Part shown: piece by piece, positions 1,187 through 29,938 of the stretch | Layout of the letters: each line of letters begins with the position of its first letter | Numbering within the stretch: position 1 is the first letter of the stretch | From: Ignavibacteriales bacterium | GTDB taxonomy: Bacteria > Bacteroidota > Ignavibacteria > Ignavibacteriales > Melioribacteraceae | Length of the DNA: 64,000 nucleotides | NCBI GenBank assembly: GCA_026390795.1 | Contig: JAPLFG010000003.1 | Coordinates: 124,001 to 188,000 of the forward strand | Direction of reading: 5' to 3' | Program-made: the position numbers and the translations under genes | Notes under the pieces: model-generated | Seen by the model: only the letters and a program-made list of their open reading frames with translations | Databases searched by the model: none | Told to the model about the DNA's origin: nothing

Positions 1187-2998
1187 CTAATATGTTAATC
1201 CAAATCCATAAGCGAACAACGGATCGTAATTTGCATCACCAACATTTATTGGAATCTGTTTCATGTTTTTGGGCCATGAGTGAGGCAATTTTCCTACCGG
1301 TTTAAAATCACCAAAGAGAATATCTGCTAAACCCTGACCTTCTGTTCCCGGCAGCCATGCGGCTATAAACGCTTTACTTTTATTTAATGCCGATTCAATC
1401 AGCATCGGTCTTCCTGAAAGAAGAATTACAACTACCGGGACTCCCGATGCTTTTGCTTTTTCGATTGTATCAACATCTTCTTTAGCAAGACTTAAATCCT
1501 CACGGTCGCCTAACATTTCAGCATAAGGAGTTTCTCCAATAACTACAATACAAACATCAGCATATTCTGCACCGGAGCCATCAGTAGATGTTGTGACTTT
1601 TGTGCTGCTAGAGACTGTATTTTTAATTGCCTGCAAAATTGTTGTACCGCCGGATATAATATTTCCGCTCTTGCTTTGCCAAATGATAGTCCAGCCGCCG
1701 CATTGATTGCCAATATCGTCGGCGCTCTTTCCTGTTACGTGGATGTGTTTCAAATCTTTTGAGAGCGGGAGAATATTATTTTCGTTCTTTAGTAGTACAA
1801 GAGACTTTCGAACCGCATCACGTGCAACTTCTCTATGTTCCTTTGAACCAACTAACGCAGTAAGATTTTTATCCGTGAATGCGTTTTCAAAAAGCCCCAG
1901 TTCAAATTTTACTTTTAATATTCTTTTAACGGCGTCATCAATTCTGCTAATTGGTACTTTGTTTTCATTTACAAGTTCTTTCAAGAATGTAATGAATTCA
2001 ACGTAGTTGTTATTTTGTCCAGGAGCGTTGGGAATCATGATCATATCAAGACCGGCATTAATAGATTTTTCAATATCGTTCTTGTAATCTTTGCCGAGTT
2101 GATCGATGCCCTGCCAATCGGAGACCAAAAATCCATTAAAACCAAGTTCGCCTTTCAATACATCGGTTAGCAAATATTTTTGACCGTGCATTTTTTCACC
2201 GTTCCAGCTGCTGTATGAAACCATAATTGATTTAGCACCCGCTCTAATTGCTTCAACATAACCTTGCATATGAATTTTACGGAGAGTTGCTTCATCAACT
2301 TCTGTGTTGCCCTGATCTTTTCCATTTGTAGTTCCGCCATCACCGACAAAATGTTTAATGCAGGCAAGCACCGAATTTTTATCCGAAAGATTCTTTCCCT
2401 GCATTCCTTTAACATAAGCTGCGCCTAACGTTTTAACCAAATCCGGTTCCTCACCGTAACTTTCATAAGTTCTTCCCCATCTTTCATTTCGGGCCACAGC
2501 AACGCAAGGAGCAAAATCCCATTGCATTCCAGTTCCTTTAATTTCAGCGGCTGTAACGGCAGCAACCTGCTCGATAAGTTTTGGATTACGTGTAGCTCCT
2601 AATCCAACATTGTGCGGAAAGATAGTTGCGCCGTCAACATTGTTATGCCCATGCACCGCATCAATTCCCCAAATGATTGGAATTTTCAAACGATTTGTTA
2701 AAGCTATGTTTTGAAATTTATCGTAAAGATCTGCCCAGCCTTTTGCTGTAATATCTTCAGGCTCAGAATTACCTCCGCATAAAATAGATCCAAGAGAATA
2801 TTTAACAATGTCATTCACATTTTTTTTGATCGCGTCATAATCAACTTGTGTCATCTGACCGATCTTTTCATCGAGTGTCATTTGAGAAAGAAGTGTATTA
2901 GCTTTTTTTTCAATGGCTTTTTCCTTATCGGTTTGTGCGTTAGTCAAAATTACTCCCACAAAGAAAAAAATTACGAGGAAATGGATATTCTTTTTCAT
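1187..2998 (-). CDS. Glycoside hydrolase family 3 exo-beta-glucanase/beta-glucosidase
   Basis: A complete 603-residue GH3 enzyme with a signal peptide cleaved near residues 20-21 (ILTNAQ). Visible motifs are KHFVGDGG at 215-222, the nucleophile Asp294 in LVSDWQGID, the second-domain PYAEMLGD stretch whose Glu corresponds to the acid/base residue of barley exoglucanase ExoI, and the PGTEGQG motif near the C-terminus. The ending FGFGLTY is typical of the ExoI-like subgroup, which hydrolyses beta-1,3/1,4-glucans and cello-oligosaccharides from the non-reducing end. No T9SS sorting domain follows, so a periplasmic location is likely. It sits 59 nt downstream of a ROK glucokinase and upstream of another GH3 gene, which fits final trimming of glucan fragments to glucose. 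Substrate linkage is inferred from family only. Confidence 0.94.
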
Positions 2999-3057: not shown

Positions 3058-4023
3058 TCAATTTGTTTTATTTAATTCATTCCAGATTAATGCACTGGCA
3101 CCAAGAATAGCGGCGTGAGCTCCAGGTAATAAAGAAGGCAGAAGTTTAACTTTGTTTTTGAAAATGTTCAGAATGAATTCTTCCATGTATCGCTTGGTTG
3201 GTACAAAAATTAAATCACCGGCGAGAGCCAGACCACCAAAAAGAATTATTGCCTCGGGACTTAGATACGCAACGGAATCCGCAAGTTTGAGACCAAGAAT
3301 TTTAGCAGTGTAGTCAAAAGCGGCAAGAGCAAGTTTATCTCCGCGGTTTGCCGCATCTGCAATATCTTTTGCCGTAAGTTGATTAAAACTCATATCCCTT
3401 AACTCACTCGGAATATTCGTGATGCAGATTAATTCAAAAATCGTCCTCCGGATACCAGAAGCAGATGCATAAGTTTCCAGACATCCTTTTCTTCCGCAAC
3501 CGCACTCCCGTCCATTAGGATCAACAATCGTGTGGCCAATCTCTCCTGCAAACCCGTCGGCTCCATAGACCAATTGACCGTTAACTACAATTCCGCTGCC
3601 TAACCCGGTGCCAAGAGTTATAACAATAAAATCTTTCATTCCTTTTGCTGCACCGAAAATCATCTCTCCAATTGCAGCCGCGTTTGCATCGTTTGTAATT
3701 GCAGAAGGTAGCGGAGAATATTTTTTTATTATATCTAAAACATTTACTACTCCCCAATTCAAATTTGGGGGAAGTTCAACAGTACCTTTATAATAATTTG
3801 CGTTTGGTGCACCGATTCCGATCCCAACTAATTCATAAGCATCAGAATATTTTTTAAAATCATCATCTATTTTCTTAAACAATCTGCTAAACAATTGATC
3901 TGCATTCTGATCCGCATGAGTTAAGATTGATGCTTCGTAAATACACTCACCCACTTCATCAACAAAACCAAATACAGTATTAGTGCCTCCGACATCAATT
4001 CCGATGGCAACTTTTTTCTTCAT
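3058..4023 (-). CDS. ROK-family glucokinase
   Basis: Cytoplasmic sugar kinase of 321 residues, the usual ROK length. Seen in the sequence: the phosphate-binding DVGGTNT at residues 10-16, catalytic Asp112 in TNDANAAA, the GTGLGSG loop at 138-144, EIGH at 161-164, and the zinc-binding cluster CGCGRKGC (174-181) that defines ROK kinases. Known members phosphorylate glucose or related hexoses with ATP. Its ATG lies 2 nt after the stop of the upstream sugar permease, so the two are very probably translated from one message: import of the hexose followed by phosphorylation. Because the neighbours are beta-glucan hydrolases, glucose is the likely substrate; fructokinase or N-acetylhexosamine kinase activity cannot be excluded from sequence. 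Confidence 0.9.
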   Translation of the reverse strand: MKKKVAIGIDVGGTNTVFGFVDEVGECIYEASILTHADQNADQLFSRLFKKIDDDFKKYSDAYELVGIGIGAPNANYYKGTVELPPNLNWGVVNVLDIIKKYSPLPSAITNDANAAAIGEMIFGAAKGMKDFIVITLGTGLGSGIVVNGQLVYGADGFAGEIGHTIVDPNGRECGCGRKGCLETYASASGIRRTIFELICITNIPSELRDMSFNQLTAKDIADAANRGDKLALAAFDYTAKILGLKLADSVAYLSPEAIILFGGLALAGDLIFVPTKRYMEEFILNIFKNKVKLLPSLLPGAHAAILGASALIWNELNKTN

Positions 4024-4025
4024 GG

Positions 4026-5345
4026 CTAAGCCTTTGCAATAATGTAAGACGGTTTATGTCCCTTGAGTCCGTAATAAGCAATGTACACATAACATAATAC
4101 AGGGATAAAAAACGCATGATGGATTCCGATATTATCCGCAAAGAAACCTTGAACAACCGGAAGAATAGCACCACCGACAATTGCTGTACAAAGAATTCCA
4201 GAAGCTTGGCCGGTATGTTTGCCAAGTCCATCAATTGCAAGTGTAAAGATTGTCGGGAACATTATGGAATTAAAAAGTCCAACTAAAAGAATGGCCCACA
4301 TTGCAACCTGACCAAAAGTCAGCATCGAAATAATCACTAGAATTCCGGCAACTAAAGCATTAAAAGCAAGAACTTTTCCGGGATTAATTTTTCTCTGAAC
4401 AGCAGAACCGATGAATCTACCAATCATAGCCCCACCCCAATAGAAGGATACAAACTTACCCGCATCGGATTCTTTTAACCCGGCAATGAAAGGTTGACCG
4501 ATATAGTTAACAAGAAAACTTCCGATAGAAACTTCGCCGCCGACGTAAACAAAAATTCCAATTGCACCAAGTACCAAATGTTTATAACCCCATGCACTTT
4601 TGTGCATATCATGGTAATTCACACCATCATCACCGCTTGCCAGAATATCGGACGCTTCAACTTTTGGTAACTTGATTACGGCAAAGATTGCAGCAATCAC
4701 AAACAATGCTGCTGCTAATCCAAGATAAGGAACTTGAACTGCACCGGACTCTGCTAATTTATAAGCAGTAATTTGATCGGCGTTCATTGTTTTAAAATCT
4801 TCAACTGTCTTCACTGCTAAAGAAAGAATTATCAATGAACCAAAGTATGGTGCGATTGTAGTTCCAAGCGAATTGAATGCTTGAGTAAGATTTAACCTAC
4901 TGGACGCAGTTTCGGGTTTACCAAGAATTGCAACGTAAGGATTAGCTGCAACCTGAAGTATTGTGATACCACCAGCTAGAACAAATAACGCACCTAAAAA
5001 CATAGCATAAGACTGCATACTTGCTGATGGATAAAACAATAAACAGCCAATACCAGCTGTTATTAAACCAATTACTATTCCGTTTTTATAACCAATTTTT
5101 TCTACAAGAATTCCTGCCGGCAGAGATACAATTGCATAAGCAGTAAAAAAACTGAATTGAATCAACATCACTTGTGTATAATTTAAAGTGAAGACAGCTT
5201 TTAGATGAGGGATCAAAATATCATTCAGACACGTAATAAATCCCCACATAAAAAATAACGATGTAAGAACTGTTAGCGCGAAGTTGTAATTTTGCCCACC
5301 ATTAACAGCTTTTGCATCAGACTTAGTTGGTATTGAGGAAGCCAT
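4026..5345 (-). CDS. MFS sugar permease, FHS (FucP/GluP) family
   Basis: Inner-membrane proton-sugar symporter of 439 residues with about twelve hydrophobic segments. The N-terminal part ([18 protein letters not shown]) and the following helix pair are characteristic of the FHS family, which includes L-fucose permease FucP and the glucose/galactose porter GluP. The start is supported by AAGGAG seven bases ahead of the ATG. It lies between the GH16 lichenase (28 nt upstream) and the ROK kinase (2 nt downstream), so glucose, or glucose plus galactose, is the most economical guess. A hydrophilic loop in the middle ([17 protein letters not shown]) separates the two six-helix halves as usual for MFS proteins. 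Confidence 0.88.
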
Positions 5346-5373: not shown

Positions 5374-7209
5374 TTATTTCAGCAGCAACATTTTTTTTGT
5401 TAGAAAATAATTATCTGTCTGTAAAGAATAGAAGTAAACTCCGCTTGAAAATTTTTTACCGTTATTTTTAAAATTTGCATTGAAATCCACCTTGTAATTT
5501 CCGGATGCTTGTTCTTCATTTACAAGAACCGCAATTTCAGATCCAAGAGAATCAAATACTTTCAACGAGACAAAACTGGAATTTGGAAGACGATAGCTTA
5601 TTGATGTACCCGGATTGAAAGGGTTTGGATAATTCTGTTCGAGTTTGAATTCATTAGGAATATTTGCCCCAGTCTTGACATCAGATGCTTCGAGTGATTC
5701 AATTATTATTCCGTTGAGAAGCGGTCTTTCAATCTGCGCAGCAAAATGAATATCAATTAGATAGTCTTTCACTTCAACATCTTCAATAATTTTTTCTACT
5801 GCCGCTTTCGAACCTGCTTCTTTAAAAATATCCAATCCGTTGATAACAAGATTGCCTTGAATATAAATATCAAAAACTCTTTTACCTGGGGAGTTATAAT
5901 AATTTTCGGCTAACAGAAGTTTTATTTTATACTTACCATTTGGTATCCGCAGAATATACTTTGCTAATCCATTAATTTCGGTTTGATAAATCTGATCATC
6001 AAGAGTGTTGTTTATTTCATTTGCAAAAGGTCCGCCTTTCGTTCCTTCCATGAAACCATAATTGGAAGTATCGGTTATGAATTCGTTATCGGCGATAAAA
6101 TCTTTATAAACATTTCCGCCTACATTAATCTTCAGGGGTAAAGTAAATTTTTTTGTAATCAGGATTGGGCGAAGATGCAAGTCTGATATGTTAACGGGTA
6201 CAGCTAAGTCTCTAATACCAGATACAATTAAATTTGGGTGTGAATTCAAATCCAAACCGTTCACTTGAAGTTCAATTGTTCTTTTATCCGGCAAGAGAGC
6301 TGCGTTGTTAACTGTAAAGCCTGGAATAATATAATTTCCTATTGTCTCTGCACTTGTTTTTTCTATCTTTTCAGAAAAAAATATTTCTATTTTAGATTCG
6401 GAATCAGCTCTTACATTCAACATTGTGGGCTTTATATTATCAACATAACCGGGAGTTGATTTGTCAGTCAGACAGAGAATTAATTTTCCTTCAGCAAATA
6501 CAATATTATCAGGGATGAAACTGCTTTTATTTCCATTGAATCCATGATCCCCCTTTTCCCATCTTGTATCATCGAATGAATTGAATTCATCTTTCCAATC
6601 AAGAGTGAAATTGTTTCCTGTTCCATAATTACCAGTGCCTGGTGAATATTTGTAATAAGCCGCCCAATCATAAAAGCCGAATCCGGGAAGAAGAGCATCG
6701 TTCCAGACGCCAGCCCAGTTTGTATAGATCGGGCACCAGATATTCATCATCAGTTTTTGCGCCCTAGTTACGGTTTTGACATGGTCTCCCGTCTGCCTGT
6801 AGACTTCAGTTCCGTCTATAAACCATGCAATGTATTCCGGTGTCCATTCAAACGCGTAAGTGTGATAATCTAGTGCCGGATTAAAATTAACATATTGATG
6901 ACGCACATGATTTGCAGCTCCGGCAGTAATTGTATTGAATTGTACATCGTTGTTGTAGCGTCCCATTATTTCGATATCAACTTCGTTCCATTTTGATGAA
7001 GCCCAGTCATCTCCCGGCAATCCATCAAAATACGTAAACAGAGAGGTAAGCATTCCTTCTTTACCAGGAGCTTTGATGCTTGCTTCGAATCTTCCGTACA
7101 TAAAAGAATCTTTGGTTCTATACTCGGCACCTCGTAGAACTACCTGAGCAGAGGAAAATATTTGAAGGGAAAAAAAGAAGATTGCCGTTATAATAATTTT
7201 TGTTTTCAA
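5374..7209 (-). CDS. Secreted GH16 lichenase with circularly permuted catalytic domain, malectin-like domain and T9SS sorting domain
   Basis: Predicted endo-beta-1,3-1,4-glucanase of 611 residues. After a signal peptide (ending about residue 21) comes the GH16 core beginning at a strand that is normally in the middle of the fold (MYGRFEASIKAP, 37-48), then the catalytic motif NEVDIEIMG with Glu76, Asp78 and Glu80. The strands that normally open a GH16 domain (DWKDEF, then DNIVFAEGKLILCL) appear at its end, residues 204-248. This order matches the naturally permuted Fibrobacter succinogenes lichenase. Residues about 260-350 form an Ig-like linker, 356-505 a malectin-like carbohydrate-binding domain (LKINVGG, KYKIKLLLAE), and 515-611 a T9SS type A domain with NYPNPFNP. 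The protein should therefore be exported and attached at or released from the cell surface. Confidence 0.93.
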   Translation of the reverse strand: MKTKIIITAIFFFSLQIFSSAQVVLRGAEYRTKDSFMYGRFEASIKAPGKEGMLTSLFTYFDGLPGDDWASSKWNEVDIEIMGRYNNDVQFNTITAGAANHVRHQYVNFNPALDYHTYAFEWTPEYIAWFIDGTEVYRQTGDHVKTVTRAQKLMMNIWCPIYTNWAGVWNDALLPGFGFYDWAAYYKYSPGTGNYGTGNNFTLDWKDEFNSFDDTRWEKGDHGFNGNKSSFIPDNIVFAEGKLILCLTDKSTPGYVDNIKPTMLNVRADSESKIEIFFSEKIEKTSAETIGNYIIPGFTVNNAALLPDKRTIELQVNGLDLNSHPNLIVSGIRDLAVPVNISDLHLRPILITKKFTLPLKINVGGNVYKDFIADNEFITDTSNYGFMEGTKGGPFANEINNTLDDQIYQTEINGLAKYILRIPNGKYKIKLLLAENYYNSPGKRVFDIYIQGNLVINGLDIFKEAGSKAAVEKIIEDVEVKDYLIDIHFAAQIERPLLNGIIIESLEASDVKTGANIPNEFKLEQNYPNPFNPGTSISYRLPNSSFVSLKVFDSLGSEIAVLVNEEQASGNYKVDFNANFKNNGKKFSSGVYFYSLQTDNYFLTKKMLLLK

Positions 7210-7393: not shown

Positions 7394-8443
7394 TTAGAAA
7401 GTTATACTAAATGAAAATTTTTGAACATTTTTTAATCTTCCAAAATCTCCATAAGAGTAATCAACCTTCATCGCAACATTTCCTATAAACCGCTGTTGAA
7501 CTCCCGCTCCGAATGTATATGACTCTTCGGAATCTTTTAAGAAGAGAGATTTATAACCAGCTCTCAAAAAGAACATATCATTGAATGTGTACTCACCGCC
7601 TACATTAATGCTTTCATAATTATCACTTGGATGCATCGCATCAATCGCAACTAAGAATTTGTGCATTTGCGTGTTAATTGGTCTATAAGAAATTCCGACT
7701 CTAAAGTTTAAAGGTAGTTCCCATTCATCTGTTTGCAGGTATGCCGGGATTCGATCATTATTACCGGTTGAATTTTTGTCCGGATCATAAAGTACAAGAG
7801 CAGAATTTCCCTCCAATTTCATTTTTGTTCCGAAGTTAGATATAGACATAGCAAGCACTATCCCATCAAAAGGAGTGATGTATTGAACACCCATATCAAC
7901 AGCAAATGCGGTTGCTGTTGTTTTCCATATTTTTTGACTTATGAATTTAGGGTTGAAACCAATCGCAAAATTATCTGTCAAATTAATTGCATACGCAACA
8001 CTGAACATAACATCAGAAACACTGAACATTTCTCCAGTACCTTCCGGATCTGCAATGGTTCTGACTTTCATATCTTCAACATTAGATGATAGAAAACTGA
8101 TGCCAAGTGTTCCATAAGTTCCTACATTGTAAGAAGCAGCTACATAATTATAATTTATATCCGCAATCCAATTTGAATGGTCGAATACCACGGCGCCACC
8201 CGGTACTTTTGCGAGACCTGCAGGATTCCAATAAATTGCAGTAGGGTCATCAGAAACCGCTACATATGCACTCCCCATTCCGGAAGCTCTAGCACCTTGA
8301 TTAATTGAAAGGAATTGTGCGGCAGTGGTTCCTTTCTTGGAAACATCTGAAACGAAATTTTGTGCGGTAAGACTAGAAAAAATCACCAAACTTTGAACCG
8401 CCGTCAAAAATAGAAATACTAAATTTATTTTTATTCTTTTCAT
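7394..8443 (-). CDS. PorV/PorQ-family outer-membrane protein
   Basis: A 349-residue beta-barrel protein of the PorV/PorQ (UPF0164) family. After the signal peptide the family hallmark is visible: GARASGMGSAYVAVSDD followed by PTAIYWNPAGLA. PorV-like proteins act with the type IX secretion system as outer-membrane shuttles or anchors for sorting-domain cargo. The ATG chosen has GGAG six bases upstream; in-frame GTG and ATG codons 12-15 nt further up overlap the previous stop and are less likely. It lies just downstream of a giant secreted protein gene, and such pairs are common in this group, so the two products may interact at the cell surface. That partnership is inference. Confidence 0.85.
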   Translation of the reverse strand: MKRIKINLVFLFLTAVQSLVIFSSLTAQNFVSDVSKKGTTAAQFLSINQGARASGMGSAYVAVSDDPTAIYWNPAGLAKVPGGAVVFDHSNWIADINYNYVAASYNVGTYGTLGISFLSSNVEDMKVRTIADPEGTGEMFSVSDVMFSVAYAINLTDNFAIGFNPKFISQKIWKTTATAFAVDMGVQYITPFDGIVLAMSISNFGTKMKLEGNSALVLYDPDKNSTGNNDRIPAYLQTDEWELPLNFRVGISYRPINTQMHKFLVAIDAMHPSDNYESINVGGEYTFNDMFFLRAGYKSLFLKDSEESYTFGAGVQQRFIGNVAMKVDYSYGDFGRLKNVQKFSFSITF

Positions 8444-8457
8444 ATCTCGCTCCATCA

Positions 8458-11400
8458 CTATTTAATTACCGCAAATTTGCCGATGTATTGACCTAGTTCC
8501 AGTGCATCAACATGATAAATATAGAGTCCGTATGATAAATCCATTCCGTCTTCCGTTATAAGATTCCAAGATATTGTTCCGTCTTCCGAACCGCCTTCTT
8601 TTTGAAGTGTCTTTATTAATGCACCTGTAACAGTGTAAATTCTAATAGTACACATTGTTGGAAGATGAATGAAATCAATTCTTCTTTCACCGCGTCCGGT
8701 TTGAACTAGATTCCTCTTTTCCCAGGCATTGGCGCTGATATATGGATTAGGAACGACTGCAATTTTACTTAGAGAATTTTTTGCACTGTCTGCTTCAACT
8801 CTTGCACCTTTAGTAGAGAATTGAAAATAATCTCCGGTCGTAAAAGGCCTGGTCGTGACGAACTTGAAAATATCTCCCGGTTTGGGGGTAGCAAACTGTG
8901 GTGCCGATGGAATTCTGTATAATATTCTCCAAGTCAATTTGAATTGAGTTCCCACATACTCGATAATTACAATGTCATCGCCCAAACTGAATTGACCATC
9001 TGCATTATTGTCAAAGTACTCAGCTTGAATTTCTTCTCCTCTGGAAGCATTGCGGACTTTAAATGGAACAGGTTTTTTTGTAAAAGGAGTTGTAATTGTC
9101 TGACCCTCGGGCAGCCATTCAATTTCATAATCTGATGGCCAAGCGATATTTCTTGTCGGTGAACTTTTATCAGGAGCTACGATCATATCGACGTTACTGT
9201 AACCCTTCAACCATCCTTTTTCTTTTACAACACCAAGTGTATCGTTGCTTACAGAAAGTATTAGACCATCAAACGGTGCACTGTATTTTCCAGCGCCAAA
9301 ATTAGAAGAGTCAACATTTGCAAAAATAACTTCATTTGTTCCATTAAATGAGCGGTTAAGAGAATAACCGGTTGTTTTATATGTTGGTACATTTCCAGCG
9401 GCTGTAAAATTAAGTTTATAGGTTGCGCCTTCTTTTACTTCATTCGGATTAAGAACAATCAAATCCATCTTACCTGAACCAAGCCCTAAAGTAACTCTGG
9501 TTAAGTCACCGGAGACTTGAGGAGGTTGATAACCTGAAGCAGGCGCATTTGGTTTTACAACCGCACAATTTATATCTATAAATTTTATCTGGCCTGAAAA
9601 ATCTTGTGAGATAATTTTAGTTGTCTCACTGGGAATCAATCCTTTTGTACCATAAGCTGGATCCCCCTGGTCATAAGCAACTAATGCATAATAATATGTA
9701 CTTCCATTAGTAACGGTTGAATCAACAAAAGAATGTTGAAGACCAGTCTCATTCCCCCTCCAAAAATGAGCGCCGTTAATTCCAATAGGGTCAGGTCCTT
9801 TAATACCATCTTTCATATCAAACTGTGCGATAGGTTTCCAATACTTAGGTTCACCCTTGGAGTCAGTAATCAATTTAATATCATTAAACTCAGGCTCCTG
9901 ACTTCTATAAAGCAAGTAGCCTTCAAAATCTTTTCTTCGCAAAAATCGATCAAAAGACTTTTCGGCGTAATCATTCCAATAAAGAAATACTTTTTTATTC
10001 CCTGCAATTGCAGTTAAAGTAGGTTTCAAAGGCGGCTGAGAGAAATTATAATTCGCATTATAGATTGATTGAACTGTCTCTTTGTTAAATACCATATCAT
10101 CATAATCAACACCAAATACTAATGCTACAGAAAATCGTTCGCGCTTGTATATCTTTAATGGAAAAGGGCCTGAACCAAACAGAATTTGGATGTTAGAATT
10201 TGTTAATGATGTATCAAAACTATTGTAATTCATTTTTCTCCAGATCACTTCATCATTCTTTGGCCATATAGCGTTTGGTCCTTTGTTAGATAATCTTTCT
10301 ATTACCAAACTTGTCAAACCGATTTGATCAGATTCATCTTTATCCGTTCTATCAAAATTTGATTCGCCATCAGTTGGTTTACCATCCCCCTCACCATCAT
10401 CCGGTCCGTTGTATTGAGGATCATCTGGACCCACTCCGTCTTTTCCAAGATCATCATTTAAAGGTTCTCCCGGATCCCATTTACCATTGTGGTTAGAATC
10501 TGTGAATGGAACCCAGTTGTGGTTATCATCTATACCGTTATCACGACTCTCATCTACTAATCCATCTTCATCATTGTCAATTCCATCGGTAGCGTTACCG
10601 GGACTTTCTAAAAATGCATAACCGACGTATCCGGTTTTTCCCACAAAATCCGGAGATTTTCCATCATGATCGAATGCGTATGCAAGATCAAGTTTTGTAT
10701 TATAAGAAGCGTCGTCATCTCCGTTGTCATTTACACCTCCAACACCTGTATCACAATAAAATCCAAAGTAAGTTGTATCTAACGATACATCCGAGAGATT
10801 AACAATATCATAATGGAAAAAGATAATATCTTCGGCAAGTACATGTGACCACTGGAATCCGCGAACTTCGGTTCTCAATCCTAAACCGCCTCTGTTGTGG
10901 TCTGATGCAAGTGGAAAATATGAATATGGGACACGGTTAAATTCTTTGTCCTTCGAATCGTCCATCGTATAGAAAACTTCAAGATCAGCATTCATAACAC
11001 CACGACCAAAATATCCAAACCAATATCCATCCCAATTAGCATCCACATTTGGAAGTGAGCGTGGCCACTGTTCCGGCCAGGATAATGGTCTTGTACTCAT
11101 AGCAGGTTGTTCCGATCCTGATCTTGCATAACCTGGAATCGGCTCCATAACCCATAAGTCGCCGGTTACTGGATCAAAATCAACTTCTTCTCTATATGAT
11201 GTTTGTGCAGGATGAACAATTTGTTTATTACCGGGGGCGAGTATTGCAGAGGAAATTACTGGTGTACATCCGTCAAGATACATTTCTCCAGTTCCTTTCG
11301 GCCATTCACCTGAAGGTCTATCCGGCCATGTACCTACCTGCCCGTCGTTTGAGAAAAGAGTACGAACAAGGTTTCCATCCATCACACCTTTTTTTCTATA

Positions 11401-11514
11401 AGTTTTGTCTCCATATGGCTCTGCACGATATTTCAATATCTGTTCCTGGGTTTGAGCCAAGGAGATATCCGCCACAAGAAAGAATACGGACAACCATAAA
11501 ATATTTCTTTTCAT
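8458..11514 (-). CDS. Large secreted surface protein with acidic calcium-binding-like region and C-terminal T9SS-like domain
   Basis: About 1018 residues with a signal peptide (MKRNILWLSVFFLVADISLAQ). The ATG was chosen because GGAG stands six bases upstream; the in-frame ATG 12 nt earlier has no such site. The middle part contains an Asp/Asn-rich stretch with units such as NDEDGLVDE, DSNHNGKWDPGE and DDGEGDGKPTD, resembling thrombospondin type-3 or dockerin-like calcium loops. A fibronectin III-like segment follows (LYWNDYAEKSFDRF, TYYYALVAYD). The end (TGALIKTLQ ... GLYIYHVDALELGQYIGKFAVIK, written here only in parts) resembles a T9SS type A domain although the NYPNPFNP motif is replaced by VVPNPYIS. 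I do not recognise an enzymatic domain. Its position between the TonB receptor and the PorV-like gene suggests a surface or binding role in glycan capture. Confidence 0.82.
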   Translation of the reverse strand: MKRNILWLSVFFLVADISLAQTQEQILKYRAEPYGDKTYRKKGVMDGNLVRTLFSNDGQVGTWPDRPSGEWPKGTGEMYLDGCTPVISSAILAPGNKQIVHPAQTSYREEVDFDPVTGDLWVMEPIPGYARSGSEQPAMSTRPLSWPEQWPRSLPNVDANWDGYWFGYFGRGVMNADLEVFYTMDDSKDKEFNRVPYSYFPLASDHNRGGLGLRTEVRGFQWSHVLAEDIIFFHYDIVNLSDVSLDTTYFGFYCDTGVGGVNDNGDDDASYNTKLDLAYAFDHDGKSPDFVGKTGYVGYAFLESPGNATDGIDNDEDGLVDESRDNGIDDNHNWVPFTDSNHNGKWDPGEPLNDDLGKDGVGPDDPQYNGPDDGEGDGKPTDGESNFDRTDKDESDQIGLTSLVIERLSNKGPNAIWPKNDEVIWRKMNYNSFDTSLTNSNIQILFGSGPFPLKIYKRERFSVALVFGVDYDDMVFNKETVQSIYNANYNFSQPPLKPTLTAIAGNKKVFLYWNDYAEKSFDRFLRRKDFEGYLLYRSQEPEFNDIKLITDSKGEPKYWKPIAQFDMKDGIKGPDPIGINGAHFWRGNETGLQHSFVDSTVTNGSTYYYALVAYDQGDPAYGTKGLIPSETTKIISQDFSGQIKFIDINCAVVKPNAPASGYQPPQVSGDLTRVTLGLGSGKMDLIVLNPNEVKEGATYKLNFTAAGNVPTYKTTGYSLNRSFNGTNEVIFANVDSSNFGAGKYSAPFDGLILSVSNDTLGVVKEKGWLKGYSNVDMIVAPDKSSPTRNIAWPSDYEIEWLPEGQTITTPFTKKPVPFKVRNASRGEEIQAEYFDNNADGQFSLGDDIVIIEYVGTQFKLTWRILYRIPSAPQFATPKPGDIFKFVTTRPFTTGDYFQFSTKGARVEADSAKNSLSKIAVVPNPYISANAWEKRNLVQTGRGERRIDFIHLPTMCTIRIYTVTGALIKTLQKEGGSEDGTISWNLITEDGMDLSYGLYIYHVDALELGQYIGKFAVIK

Positions 11515-11553
11515 TCTAAACTCCATTTTCTAAAAATAGCTCAGTGCATAGGA

Positions 11554-14265
11554 TTAGAAATTAACATTGAAACCGATGTTGATTCTTCTTGGCGAAGAGT
11601 AGTCTCCCGGATTTTTTAAATACTGCTCAATAGTATTTCTTCCGATAATTGGTGCTGCAAATTTCGTATTGAGATCTACTCCTGCTCTACCAGTCGTACT
11701 TGATACTCCATATTCATTTTTGATATCGAACAGATTATAAACAAGTACAAATGCGCTTACATCAAAACCAAAAATCTTGAACTGTTTATTTGCTCTTAGG
11801 TCAACATTCATTGTATTCGGTTTTCTTCCATTATTTTCAAAACGTAATCCTTGAGAATATCTGGGATCTTCTGTATATGGCGCACCTGAACCATAACTGA
11901 ATATTATTCCTGCAGTCCAATCCGATGGATCTCCGATAGTTACAGTTGCATTAACTGTATGTGTCTGATCCCAATCCAGTGGAACCACTTTTTTGTTTGA
12001 TTCAACCGGAGGATTAGCTTGATTATTATAGAATTCAACCATCGGATCCGATGCATTTCCAGATGCTACCTGATATGTATAATCTATCTTGGCACTAAAG
12101 AAATCCGCAAATCTTTTATCTAGAGTTATGATTACTCCTTTAACATTGCCATAATCTCTATTAATGAATCGTGCATATGTAAATCCTTCGTATGTTGTAA
12201 GAATTTGCATACCAAGCAGATTTCGAATATCGCTGTAGTAAAGAGATACATCAACGGAGACTTCCGGAAAGATTACTTGTTGAAGCCCTAATTCATACTT
12301 CACAGTTTTCTGGGATTTCAATTCCGGATTTCCGACACTGGAAGAAAGAGATGAAGTTTGATCAATTAAATAAGCATAATTACTATATAAGTTTTCAAAA
12401 CTCGGAATCTGGAAAAAATGCCCGTATGAAAAATGAATTGCTCCTCTATCAGACATCGGGAATGAAACTCCGAGACGAGGACTTATCTGATATTCTGATT
12501 GTGCATCTCTCTTCACAAAGGCATTGGCAAAATTTTGATTATTCAACGGATTGCGTAAGTCAACCGGTAAGTCTGTGTTTGAACTGAAATAATCGAATCT
12601 GACGCCGGCATTAATAATCATTATATCATATTCCATTTTATCCTGAATGAATGCTGAGATTTCGAATGGGTATCTTGTGTAACTCTGATTATATTTTGTG
12701 TCAGGATTACTATAACCTAGGGTAAAAATTGCATTACCGGTAGAGTCAATTTGTCCTTCTGTCATATTCCGTATTGTTTTCCAACTATTAAAGATTGTAT
12801 GAAGTCTTGCTTCTGCACCAAACTTAACTTTATGCTCTTTAGTCAACTGCGATTCCAATGAAATCTGTCCAATGTAGCTTTGTGTATATCTATTGTATCT
12901 ATCACTCTCATTACCGCCTTGATTAAATGTATAACCCGTAATTGGTGTACCCTGATTGGGTTCAACGTAACGAGGATCGTATTCATCTTCATATAAATAG
13001 CCCCAGAACTTATGATTGTTCGATGAGAGCTTTAATGTTGCGTATGTACTTTGAGATGGTAACCATGAAATTTGGAAACTATGAATTGTATTTGTGCGAT
13101 AATTATTTTTTATTGCATCGGGAGTCCATTTGTAAGCATGGTTGTATCCCTTACTCCAGTTATCATCCCAAAAAATACTATAACTGAATTTCCATCTGTT
13201 AAAATTATAAGTCAATTTTCCGTTAAAAGATTTTTTTTCGTATGGATTCATTGGAACAAAAGCGCTATCGCCTGTACCATGATCAATCCATACAGTATTA
13301 TTCCCTGCTATTGGAAAAGTCGGTCTATCATCATAAACATTATAATATCTTTGTCCATACTCATAACCATCGTCATGATAATATCTGCCCGTAAGAAAGA
13401 ATGTCAAATTATTTAAGACTTGTGTCGGTCCACTCAAGGTTAATTGAAAATCTCTTGGACCATTTAGATTAGGTTTATTTACATTTTGAAAGATGTCTGT
13501 GTGAGTTGTAAAGTAGTTGCCCACATAAGCCGAAGCAGATCCTTCGTATTTTGAGGCACCATCCTTCGTAACAATATTGACAATGCCGGCCATAGCCTGA
13601 CCATACTCGGCATTAAATGTACCGCTTATAACTTCCATCTCTCGAATAGAGGAGTTTTCAACTTCTACCGACATACCGCCGTTGAAAACATCAGTTACTG
13701 TTACACCATCAACCAGATAAGAAACTTCACCGGAACGTCCTCCTCTAAAGTGACCGTTTACAACGCCGGCTTGGAGGTTTACAACTTGATTCAAATTTTC
13801 GACTGGCATCAATTTTATTTCTTCTGCTGAAACGATTGCTGTTGATGAAGTTAAATCTTTTGTGACCATTGGTTGTTTTGCCTGAATAACAATTTCACCA
13901 AGATTGATTGATGCGGGTGTTAGATCAACATCTAGACGAGTAGTCTGATCAATTCTTATTGAAATTTTTTGAATGGTAACTTTGTGATAACCTATCGATG
14001 AAACAACGACTGTGTAGACACCGGGCGAAATGTTGTTGATATAATAATATCCATCGAGGTCCGCCACTGCACCATAGTTTGTGCCGTTGATAAGAACCGT
14101 TGCACCAATTACCGGTTCTTTGGTCTCGGAATCAATCACTTTGCCTGCAAGCTTTCCAGTAGTACCCGCATTAATAAATGAAGAAGCAAATAACAACAGT
14201 ACAAAGCTCAGTTGTAATACACTTCCCGACAACTTGATTCTCTCCATTATATTAATCCTGCACAT
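11554..14265 (-). CDS. TonB-dependent receptor with CarboxypepD_reg-like N-terminal domain (SusC-like role)
   Basis: Outer-membrane active transporter of up to 903 residues. After a signal peptide it has a carboxypeptidase regulatory-like domain (GKVIDSETKEPVIGATVLI, about 40-115), a plug domain (VNLQAGVVNG, YLVDGVTV, AEYGQAMAGIVNIVTK), and a long beta-barrel ending in NIGFNVNF with a terminal aromatic residue. Such receptors import oligosaccharides powered by TonB-ExbBD. No SusD lipoprotein gene is nearby. Two ATGs 18 nt apart both have acceptable ribosome sites (AAGGG before the first, AGGA before the second), so the start could be at 14247. Neighbours are secreted glycan-binding proteins, so the ligand is probably a beta-glucan or mannan oligosaccharide. 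Confidence 0.9.
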   Translation of the reverse strand: MCRINIMERIKLSGSVLQLSFVLLLFASSFINAGTTGKLAGKVIDSETKEPVIGATVLINGTNYGAVADLDGYYYINNISPGVYTVVVSSIGYHKVTIQKISIRIDQTTRLDVDLTPASINLGEIVIQAKQPMVTKDLTSSTAIVSAEEIKLMPVENLNQVVNLQAGVVNGHFRGGRSGEVSYLVDGVTVTDVFNGGMSVEVENSSIREMEVISGTFNAEYGQAMAGIVNIVTKDGASKYEGSASAYVGNYFTTHTDIFQNVNKPNLNGPRDFQLTLSGPTQVLNNLTFFLTGRYYHDDGYEYGQRYYNVYDDRPTFPIAGNNTVWIDHGTGDSAFVPMNPYEKKSFNGKLTYNFNRWKFSYSIFWDDNWSKGYNHAYKWTPDAIKNNYRTNTIHSFQISWLPSQSTYATLKLSSNNHKFWGYLYEDEYDPRYVEPNQGTPITGYTFNQGGNESDRYNRYTQSYIGQISLESQLTKEHKVKFGAEARLHTIFNSWKTIRNMTEGQIDSTGNAIFTLGYSNPDTKYNQSYTRYPFEISAFIQDKMEYDIMIINAGVRFDYFSSNTDLPVDLRNPLNNQNFANAFVKRDAQSEYQISPRLGVSFPMSDRGAIHFSYGHFFQIPSFENLYSNYAYLIDQTSSLSSSVGNPELKSQKTVKYELGLQQVIFPEVSVDVSLYYSDIRNLLGMQILTTYEGFTYARFINRDYGNVKGVIITLDKRFADFFSAKIDYTYQVASGNASDPMVEFYNNQANPPVESNKKVVPLDWDQTHTVNATVTIGDPSDWTAGIIFSYGSGAPYTEDPRYSQGLRFENNGRKPNTMNVDLRANKQFKIFGFDVSAFVLVYNLFDIKNEYGVSSTTGRAGVDLNTKFAAPIIGRNTIEQYLKNPGDYSSPRRINIGFNVNF

Positions 14266-28887: not shown

Positions 28888-29095
28888 AATTTTATTTTCA
28901 CACGTTTATTAATAACTAAGAACAAAATAACGAAAAAATAAATTTAACAACTGTTGCTAAAAATTTATCAATATCTCGGACTAACTTTTTTACTTGCACT
29001 ATTATACCACATTTTTCCAACCACTTGTAGAATCGAATAAAATTTATGTAATTTTCTCGTGCAATTCTTCTTTCTATTTTTTTTATGAGGTTTCC

Positions 29096-29938
29096 ATGAA
29101 TAGTAGGATATTATCTTCAAGTATAATTTTTCTGACATTTTTTTCCACAAGTTGTAAATCGCAATCCTCCGAACCTTCTAATGAAAAAGATTCTACTGAA
29201 ATTCCTGGATGGAACTTAGTTTGGTCTGATGAATTTAATTATACAGGTTTACCCGATCCAAAGAAATGGGGCTATGATGTCGCAGCTCCCGGCTGGGTTA
29301 ACAATGAAGCTCAAGCGTATTTCGCAAATAGATCTGAAAATTCCAGAGTTGAAAATGGTAAACTTATTATTGAAGCAAGGTTGGATAACTATAACAATAG
29401 CCTTTACTCTTCTGCTCGAATTGTAACAAAAAATCGTGGTGATTGGACATACGGGCGATTTGAAATTCGCGCTAAACTTCCTGCAGGAAAAGGAACATGG
29501 CCTGCAATCTGGATGCTACCAACTGTATGGAACCTTGGCAACGGCAGTTGGCCGGATAACGGTGAGATTGATATTATGGAACACGTAGGGTATGACCAAG
29601 GCGTTATTCACGGATCAACTCACTGTAACAAATATGTCTGGACAAACGGAAATCAAAAAACTGGGACAATGAAAGTTGATGATTGTTCGACGGCATTCCA
29701 TAATTATATATTAGAATGGTCTGCAAATGAAATTAAAACTTATGTTGACGGCACACTTTATTTTGTTGTTAACAATGAAAATAAAGGATGGCAATACTGG
29801 CCTTTCTTCAAAGATTTTCATTTGATATTAAATCTTGCAATTGGCGGTACTTGGGGTGGTACACAAGGAATTGACAATAATATTTTTCCACAAAGAATGG
29901 AAGTGGAATACGTTAGAGTTTATAAAAAAACGGAATAG
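29096..29938 (+). CDS. GH16 laminarinase-like lipoprotein (endo-beta-1,3-glucanase)
   Basis: A 280-residue lipoprotein with lipobox cysteine at residue 20 (FFSTSC). The GH16 domain is in the ordinary order: WSDEF at 43-47, ENGKLIIEAR near 86-95, YGRFEIRAKLPAGKGTWPA, then the catalytic motif GEIDIMEHVG with Glu157, Asp159 and Glu162, and FHLILNLAIGG near the end. The MEHVG form is typical of beta-1,3-glucanases, so laminarin-type chains are expected substrates. The ATG was chosen because GAGG lies five bases upstream and it gives a proper lipoprotein signal; an upstream in-frame ATG lacks both. It is the only plus-strand gene in the first half of the window and is divergent from the parvulin operon. 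Confidence 0.92.
   Translation: MNSRILSSSIIFLTFFSTSCKSQSSEPSNEKDSTEIPGWNLVWSDEFNYTGLPDPKKWGYDVAAPGWVNNEAQAYFANRSENSRVENGKLIIEARLDNYNNSLYSSARIVTKNRGDWTYGRFEIRAKLPAGKGTWPAIWMLPTVWNLGNGSWPDNGEIDIMEHVGYDQGVIHGSTHCNKYVWTNGNQKTGTMKVDDCSTAFHNYILEWSANEIKTYVDGTLYFVVNNENKGWQYWPFFKDFHLILNLAIGGTWGGTQGIDNNIFPQRMEVEYVRVYKKTE

Follow-up and report, generated by a model that had tools for sequence, protein, structure and literature searches.

A circularly permuted GH16 domain in a malectin/T9SS protein of an Ignavibacteriales bacterium, and the lineage to which it belongs

Enzyme domains can readily be engineered into circular permutants, but to our knowledge few natural circular permutations have been sampled well. 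The locus analysed here raises the question of whether one of its genes encodes such a natural case and, if so, how widely the rearranged form is distributed and how often it arose. The window, that is, the whole stretch of 64,000 nucleotides that was analysed, contains an open reading frame at 5374-7209(-) whose product had been described, in an earlier sequence-only reading, as a GH16 lichenase with permuted strand order. Taken as a whole, the reading reached here, a secreted permuted endo-beta-1,3-1,4-glucanase that most likely goes back to one old permutation, appears highly probable to us. The reading frame comprises 611 open codons for 611 amino acids and begins with TTG; its closest relative (L004) also has a TTG start at the equivalent place. 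The gene and its parts are as follows.

5374..7209 (-): whole gene, 611 aa, with putative signal peptide, permuted GH16, Ig-like stretch, malectin and T9SS sorting tail
7144..7209 (-): signal-peptide-like N-terminal segment, residues ~1-22 (sequence; helix 2-20 in the model)
6640..7137 (-): core of the GH16 domain, here in first place, residues ~25-190, start ~RGAEYRT (Pfam 27-158; VIA-align)
6970..6987 (-): catalytic NEVDIE, residues 75-80 (column mapping to the F. succinogenes enzyme)
6610..6645 (-): junction linker SPGTGNYGTGNN, residues 189-200, from the old C-terminus to the old N-terminus (alignment)
6442..6609 (-): GH16 segment that opens ordinary enzymes and here closes the domain, residues 201-256 (FTLDWKDEF...GKLILCLT)
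6160..6426 (-): tentative Ig-like beta domain, residues ~262-350 (strands in the model)
5686..6153 (-): malectin domain, putative carbohydrate-binding module, residues 353-508 (Pfam 5.9e-23; fold match)
5377..5631 (-): T9SS type A sorting domain, residues 527-611 (PF18962, 29.4 bits over a cut-off of 27; TIGR04183, 33.1 over 23)

The GH16 family profile (PF00722) matches residues 27-158 with 92.4 bits against a cut-off of 22, covering profile positions 31-157 of 175, and the E-x-D-x-E motif of the family is present as EVDIE at residues 76-80; the NCBIfam BglS model reaches 132.4 bits against a cut-off of 300. The malectin-like domain and T9SS tail that the sequence-only reading had recognised are both borne out. 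Malectin (PF11721) matches residues 360-493 with 82.1 bits against a cut-off of 23, and residues 353-507 of the predicted structure adopt a malectin fold, with Z 23.7 to a domain of Bacteroides uniformis beta-glucuronidase 2 (6d50) and Z 17.9 to human malectin (9ikp). The C-terminal sorting domain of type A T9SS cargo is recognised by Pfam (Por_Secre_tail, residues 527-607, over cut-off) as well as by NCBIfam. These additions had been regarded as setting the protein apart from the Fibrobacter enzyme. They are indeed extra relative to that enzyme, but they are not peculiar to the window protein: GH16, malectin and the T9SS tail occur together in 33 of 33 aligned proteins (window plus 32 relatives), a set whose members were picked for full length. 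A Big_5 match was obtained in two of these 33 proteins, the window's not among them. Shorter relatives of about 350 residues also exist (L036, L039, L041, L042, L044), and Pfam detected no malectin domain in the scanned permuted relatives L036, L041, L046 and L047. In L207, from a genome sampled as Pseudomonadota (G1931), the permuted GH16 is followed by a linker and a C-terminal segment that, judged by eye, is CBM2-like. The permuted domain thus seems, from sequence, to have been combined with other binding modules as well.

The GH16 jelly-roll of the window protein, residues ~25-256, is in circularly permuted order. The strands DWKDEF and GKLILCL (residues ~204-247) come after the core, and NEVDIE begins at residue 75, both as the sequence-only reading had stated. 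Residues 201-256 (FTLDWKDEFNSFDDTRWEKGDHGFNGN...NIVFAEGKLILCLT) represent the strands that open ordinary GH16 domains, and the start of the GH16 profile is missing from the match because its counterpart sits in this segment after the core. In phmmer searches against PDB sequences, entries of the F. succinogenes lichenase ranked top (E 8.5e-51) in a single unbroken alignment of residues 26-254; the collinear matches 3axd, 3h0o, 2r49, 1mve and 1zm1 fall between E 8.5e-51 and 1.7e-49, and the window GH16 shares 42% identity with the F. succinogenes enzyme. In the same kind of search, ordinary-order Bacillus-type enzymes match the unrotated window domain over ~15-187 only. Rotating the domain back to the ordinary arrangement splits the F. 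succinogenes match into two pieces; the match to 1gbg extends from 15-187 to 9-222 and improves from E 8.4e-24 to 1.6e-27, and that to 3i4i improves from E 6.3e-29 to 6.3e-34. Of 36 ordinary-order GH16 domains, 35 gave a higher local alignment score after rotation, and in a control with random cuts none of 20 exceeded the true cut in any of the 36.

The predicted structure agrees with these searches. An AlphaFold2 model of the window protein, based on a 33-row alignment (mean pLDDT 90.3, pTM 0.76), aligns sequentially to 3h0o in VIA-align over 230 residues (Z 34.4, rmsd 1.7, model residues 22-258), so that the likeness to the F. succinogenes lichenase proposed from sequence extends to the fold. 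The engineered permutants 1cpn and 1cpm align over 204-208 residues with Z 31.0 and 30.7, respectively, whereas ordinary-order 1gbg reaches Z 18.6 over only 160 residues (model 20-188). Foldseek likewise ranks the F. succinogenes entries first and 1cpm and 1cpn next. The domain now starts in the loop immediately preceding the GAE strand and ends with the ~55 residues that open ordinary domains, which a short Gly-rich linker ties to the old C-terminus. According to the model, the overall fold and the active-site cleft would be unchanged by the permutation.

Could the protein instead combine an ordinary-order GH16 with an unrelated second domain that carries a DW..F motif by chance? The extent of the Pfam match, which covers only the GH16 core (residues 27-158), would fit such a composition. 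However, the first ~30 profile positions are absent N-terminally and have their equivalent behind the core, residues 22-258 of the model can be superposed in sequential order on both natural and engineered permutants, and the rotation tests contradict an ordinary order. Structure prediction had been proposed beforehand as a check, and no normal-order GH16 with an unrelated domain appeared in the model. The predicted structure and the rotation tests together rule this composition out, and we grant it scarcely any probability. An artefact of assembly or gene calling is less credible still: we found no point in its support, and the identical order is shown by 43 of the 54 related loci, which come from separate records, and by further genomes. 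We therefore retain the permuted order, which is hidden in these enzymes because the ordinary-order Pfam GH16 profile sees the core only.

The 54 related loci were obtained by scanning genome contigs. The segment that opens ordinary domains follows the core in 43 of them (permuted) and precedes it in nine; the other two are a frameshifted fragment (L045) and a locus without a recognised segment (L056). Wider sampling of phyla relied on profile searches with an alignment of 25 rows (A2), with thresholds that vary by sample and with the seed genome included in each; the phyla are named after the records of their seed loci. Of 395 genomes from the window's phylum, 40 match at 1e-20, and in 35 of these the match is permuted and spans almost all of the model. 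The phylum of the Fibrobacter genome yields matches in 116 of 167 genomes at 1e-15, 111 of these at 7.2e-58 or better, and among the matches listed (to ~1e-61) every row extends to model position 217 or beyond. In the phylum of the Marinimicrobia genome, 39 of 120 genomes match at 1e-25, and 47 of 48 matches are permuted. The phylum of the KSB1 genome contributes 30 matching genomes of 82 at 1e-25, 25 of them permuted and three with the ordinary order only; of its other matches, one is split at contig ends and one is frameshifted. Permuted genes are rarer among Spirochaetota (10 of 247 genomes match at 1e-25, three permuted), Myxococcota (15 of 282 at 1e-15, one permuted) and Pseudomonadota (2 of 224 at 1e-30, one permuted), although one Myxococcota genome (that of L047) carries two further permuted copies. 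The permuted form was not found in the samples of Bacillota (8 of 224 genomes match at 1e-30) and Actinomycetota (1 of 222 at 1e-30). It is thus common in the samples of Fibrobacterota, Ignavibacteria, Marinimicrobia and KSB1 and sporadic elsewhere, and the sporadic occurrences look like transfers.

Several loci in this collection have features of their own. Two or more permuted GH16 genes lie close together in L032, L034, L037, L038, L040, L043 and L140, and these are probably tandem paralogues. In a KSB1 genome (L045/L110), a permuted-type GH16 core is split by a frameshift and the tail segment was not found in this locus, which represents either a decayed gene or a sequencing error. One contig (L095, G280) carries both a permuted ORF, from ~588, and an ordinary-order lichenase-type ORF, from ~8949, about 8 kb apart; its permuted GH16 has extra N-terminal sequence. 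Both orders also occur side by side in Myxococcota: the ordinary-order L155, L156 and L157 share genome G405 with the permuted L109, and the ordinary-order L209 shares genome G396, that of L047, with two permuted copies. The first segment of these four ordinary-order proteins resembles that of the permuted lineage.

Phylogenetic analyses started from a set of 97 rows, assembled after removal of cores shorter than 120 residues or below 40 bits, of rows in which the segment was not recognised and of near-copies (70% identity). In a quick tree of all 97 rows, the permuted rows fall on one side of a branch with a support of 0. For a careful tree of 53 rows, 44 of the 97 were dropped, among them the ordinary-order L055, L154, L157, L159, L165 and L166, which are near permuted rows or on long branches. 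In this tree the permuted branch has a support of 90/83, and 92% of 200 bootstrap trees require a single change of order. Adding the pseudomonadotal L207 (54 rows) gave 91/70 and again a single change in 92% of bootstrap trees; restoring the six ordinary-order rows and adding L207 and L209 (61 rows) lowered these values to 76/36 and 81%. The best tree of each of the four sets contains a single change of order. The permuted rows form two clades. Clade A (support 98-100/99) comprises Fibrobacterota, Spirochaetota, Myxococcota, one row of the window's phylum and L207, and clade B (95-98/85-89), to which the window belongs, comprises Ignavibacteria, KSB1, Marinimicrobia, Calditrichota and Cytophaga relatives. 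A phylogeny had been suggested earlier as a means of distinguishing transfer from common descent. A recent transfer of the window gene from Fibrobacter is unsupported by the trees, because the two genes belong to separate permuted clades.

In AU tests of groups that were named after inspection of the trees, joining either permuted clade with the ordinary-order L088, L089, L090 and L095 of the window's phylum was rejected (p 0.003 and 0.015), and joining either clade with the ordinary-order L155 and L156 of Polyangiaceae was not (p 0.34 and 0.31). Within a few residues, clades A and B share their cut site, in the loop that immediately precedes the (G)AE strand, and a junction of the form Y-T-P-G-x-G...F-T-x-W-x-D is present in many rows of each clade. 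Junctions are shorter or different in the Myxococcota rows and some others, and L046 and L095 have additional sequence ahead of the core. Duplication intermediates, with the segment on both sides of the core, such as a permutation by duplication and later trimming could leave behind, were not found among 221 core matches from 202 sources, a set that repeats some genes, the window's included (161 core-then-segment, 50 segment-then-core, 10 core only), or in seven further loci and L209.

We conclude with moderate confidence that the permutation arose once, which we consider likely. A single origin is favoured because of the common cut site, the similar junctions and the trees, whose support varies with sampling. 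Independent permutations in the Fibrobacter clade and the window's clade would be compatible with the depth of the two clades, with the weakness of the uniting branch (76/36) once the long ordinary-order rows are restored, and with the survival of the grouping of a permuted clade with Polyangiaceae in the AU test. The cut site is also permissive, because the break falls about where the Bacillus enzyme was permuted in the laboratory (1cpm). Yet a match of cut sites to within a few residues combined with similar junctions, one change in all four best trees and the agreement of 81-92% of bootstrap trees speak for shared descent, and two origins seem rather improbable to us. A bolder scenario keeps a single deep permutation before the split of clades A and B and has it undone later, at least once, in Myxococcota genes such as L155, L156 and L209. 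These genes would then have regained the usual order and represent a reversed circular permutation, but we regard this as very unlikely.

The surroundings of the gene bear on its function. The features next to it, and a second GH16 gene farther away, are listed here.

1187..2998 (-): GH3 (beta-glucosidase-type), in the same operon-like run (Pfam)
3058..4023 (-): ROK-family sugar kinase
4026..5345 (-): glucose/galactose MFS transporter, GluP-type (TIGR01272, 398 bits over 202.55)
7394..8458 (-): PorV/PorQ family outer-membrane protein (NF033709, 227.1 bits over 90)
8458..11526 (-): orf1022, a protein of 1022 aa conserved beside permuted GH16 (no family over cut-off)
11554..14265 (-): TonB-dependent receptor
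28994..29938 (+): ordinary-order GH16, laminarinase-like, 21.8 kb from the permuted GH16

In tblastn searches of the 43 permuted related loci, some of which are broken off at contig ends, neighbours similar to the PorV-family protein were found in 34, to orf1022 in 32, to GH3 in 23 and to the TonB-dependent receptor in 20. Counts of GH26, GH2 and CBM9 neighbours were excluded, because many of these matches fall on the shared T9SS tail and not on the enzymes. The sequence-only reading had placed a laminarinase-like GH16 of ordinary order within a few kilobases; the gene is present, but at the much larger distance given above. A relative of it lies within ~6 kb of the permuted gene in eight of the 43 loci (L017, L019, L033, L034, L036, L037, L039, L043; tblastn). 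The PorV-family protein, orf1022 and the TonB receptor (7394-14265(-)) stand in the same order beside permuted GH16 in many loci of Ignavibacteria. The SusD family was not found among the Pfam and NCBIfam matches of these three proteins, and the predicted model of orf1022 has a pLDDT of 68.3. Possibly they form a different set for glycan uptake or display.

The neighbours GH3, ROK kinase, GluP-type transporter, PorV-like protein and TonB receptor fit a route for mixed-linkage glucan that runs from cleavage outside the cell over uptake and GH3 to glucose and its kinase. On this route, the enzyme would be exported by Sec and then, via its C-terminal sorting domain, by a putative T9SS, and the malectin module may bind the glucan. 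Of T9SS machinery, the PorV/PorQ-family protein is the one candidate component found in the window. We take E76 to be the catalytic nucleophile, D78 the assisting residue and E80 the acid/base. With these roles, the enzyme would cleave, with retention, the beta-1,4 bond adjoining a beta-1,3 bond. The oligosaccharides would be taken up and degraded by GH3 to glucose, which the GluP transporter and the ROK kinase could then handle.

According to column mapping, E76, D78 and E80 of the window protein correspond to E56, D58 and E60 of the F. succinogenes enzyme, and all 61 permuted domains of the 97-row set carry these three acids, 11 of the domains belonging to clade A and 50 to clade B, with the window and F. 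succinogenes counted in. The window protein also keeps E11, F40, Y42, W54, Q70, N72, W105, N139, W141, W148 and K200 (F. succinogenes numbering), and V18 and N44 are replaced by Phe and Asp. At W203, a position named in mutant structures of the F. succinogenes enzyme, the window protein has His; Trp stands there in 10 of 11 clade A rows, and His in 46 of the 50 rows of clade B. Met replaces R137 in the window protein and in 49 of the 50 clade B sequences, all 50 of which show a gap at the position of E85. GH16_21 licheninases feature a short domain, a Phe platform at -1, Tyr-94, Trp-103 and Trp-192 in 1GBG numbering (PMC6827312, section 24); judged by eye, F58, Y60, W74 and W165 of the window protein appear to stand at the matching motifs (FTY; W before NEVDIE; NWAG). 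The substrate is probably mixed-linkage beta-glucan and the activity of lichenase type. However, the replacement of W203 by His in the window and in most of clade B means that sugar contacts differ, and the changes typical of clade B, together with the laminarinase-like relatives near some permuted genes, might point to another preferred glucan, such as laminarin or an algal or fungal beta-1,3-glucan, bound by the same permuted fold. The nearest solved enzymes are lichenases, though, and F40, Y42, W54, Q70, N72, N139, W141 and W148 are all retained. We therefore deem a preference for another glucan unlikely, albeit less so than a double origin of the permutation, and keep to mixed-linkage glucan as the probable substrate.

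That such a permutation exists in nature is not new. The F. succinogenes lichenase is described as a natural permutant, and its 2003 structure paper is cited in passages of PMC4606783, PMC2395249 and PMC2213659. PMC2395249 counts "some bacterial beta-glucanases" among natural permutants, the others being unnamed in these passages, and a word search of the main text of the GH16 subfamily roadmap (PMC6827312) returned neither "permut" nor "Fibrobacter". Permuted GH16 outside Fibrobacter was not found in the open-access literature among the matches listed. The kind of permutation is thus already known, and the new part is the domain build, the clade and, provisionally, the spread; the novelty of the spread is provisional because the literature search covered open-access papers. 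The window protein is a malectin/T9SS member of a large permuted GH16 lineage that includes the Fibrobacter enzyme, and what was a single known example turns into a lineage that has numerous members across several phyla. Because the lineage is this large and some of its genomes also hold ordinary-order relatives, the event can be located on a tree. The nearest unpermuted relatives are open to assay, and the effect of the permutation on stability and specificity becomes measurable.

Among known systems, the closest is the F. succinogenes 1,3-1,4-beta-D-glucanase (1mve, 1zm1, 2r49, 3h0o, 3hr9, 3axd). The window protein shares its permuted order with sequential superposition, its cut site with a similar junction, its fold and its E-x-D-x-E motif, including the equivalents of E56, D58 and E60. 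Unlike it, the window protein belongs to clade B, has His and Met in place of W203 and R137, lacks the E85 region and carries added Ig-like, malectin and T9SS domains, and its gene adjoins genes for GH3, ROK, GluP, PorV-like and TonB proteins. The engineered permutants of the Bacillus lichenase, 1cpm and 1cpn, almost match the window protein in cut site and order (Z 31) but are laboratory-made and consist of a single domain; according to a passage in PMC8513176, engineered Bacillus permutants were cut at residue 59. The Bacillus-type licheninases 1gbg, 2ayh, 3o5s and 3i4i share the fold and the active-site motif and differ in their ordinary strand order; the structural match of 1gbg extends over 160 residues only. 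We presume that 2ayh, 3o5s and 3i4i are GH16_21 licheninases, the subfamily to which 1GBG is assigned in a section of PMC6827312. Outside GH16, human malectin (9ikp) and the C-terminal domain of B. uniformis beta-glucuronidase 2 have a fold like that of residues 353-508, the putative binding module that accompanies the permuted enzyme in the window protein.
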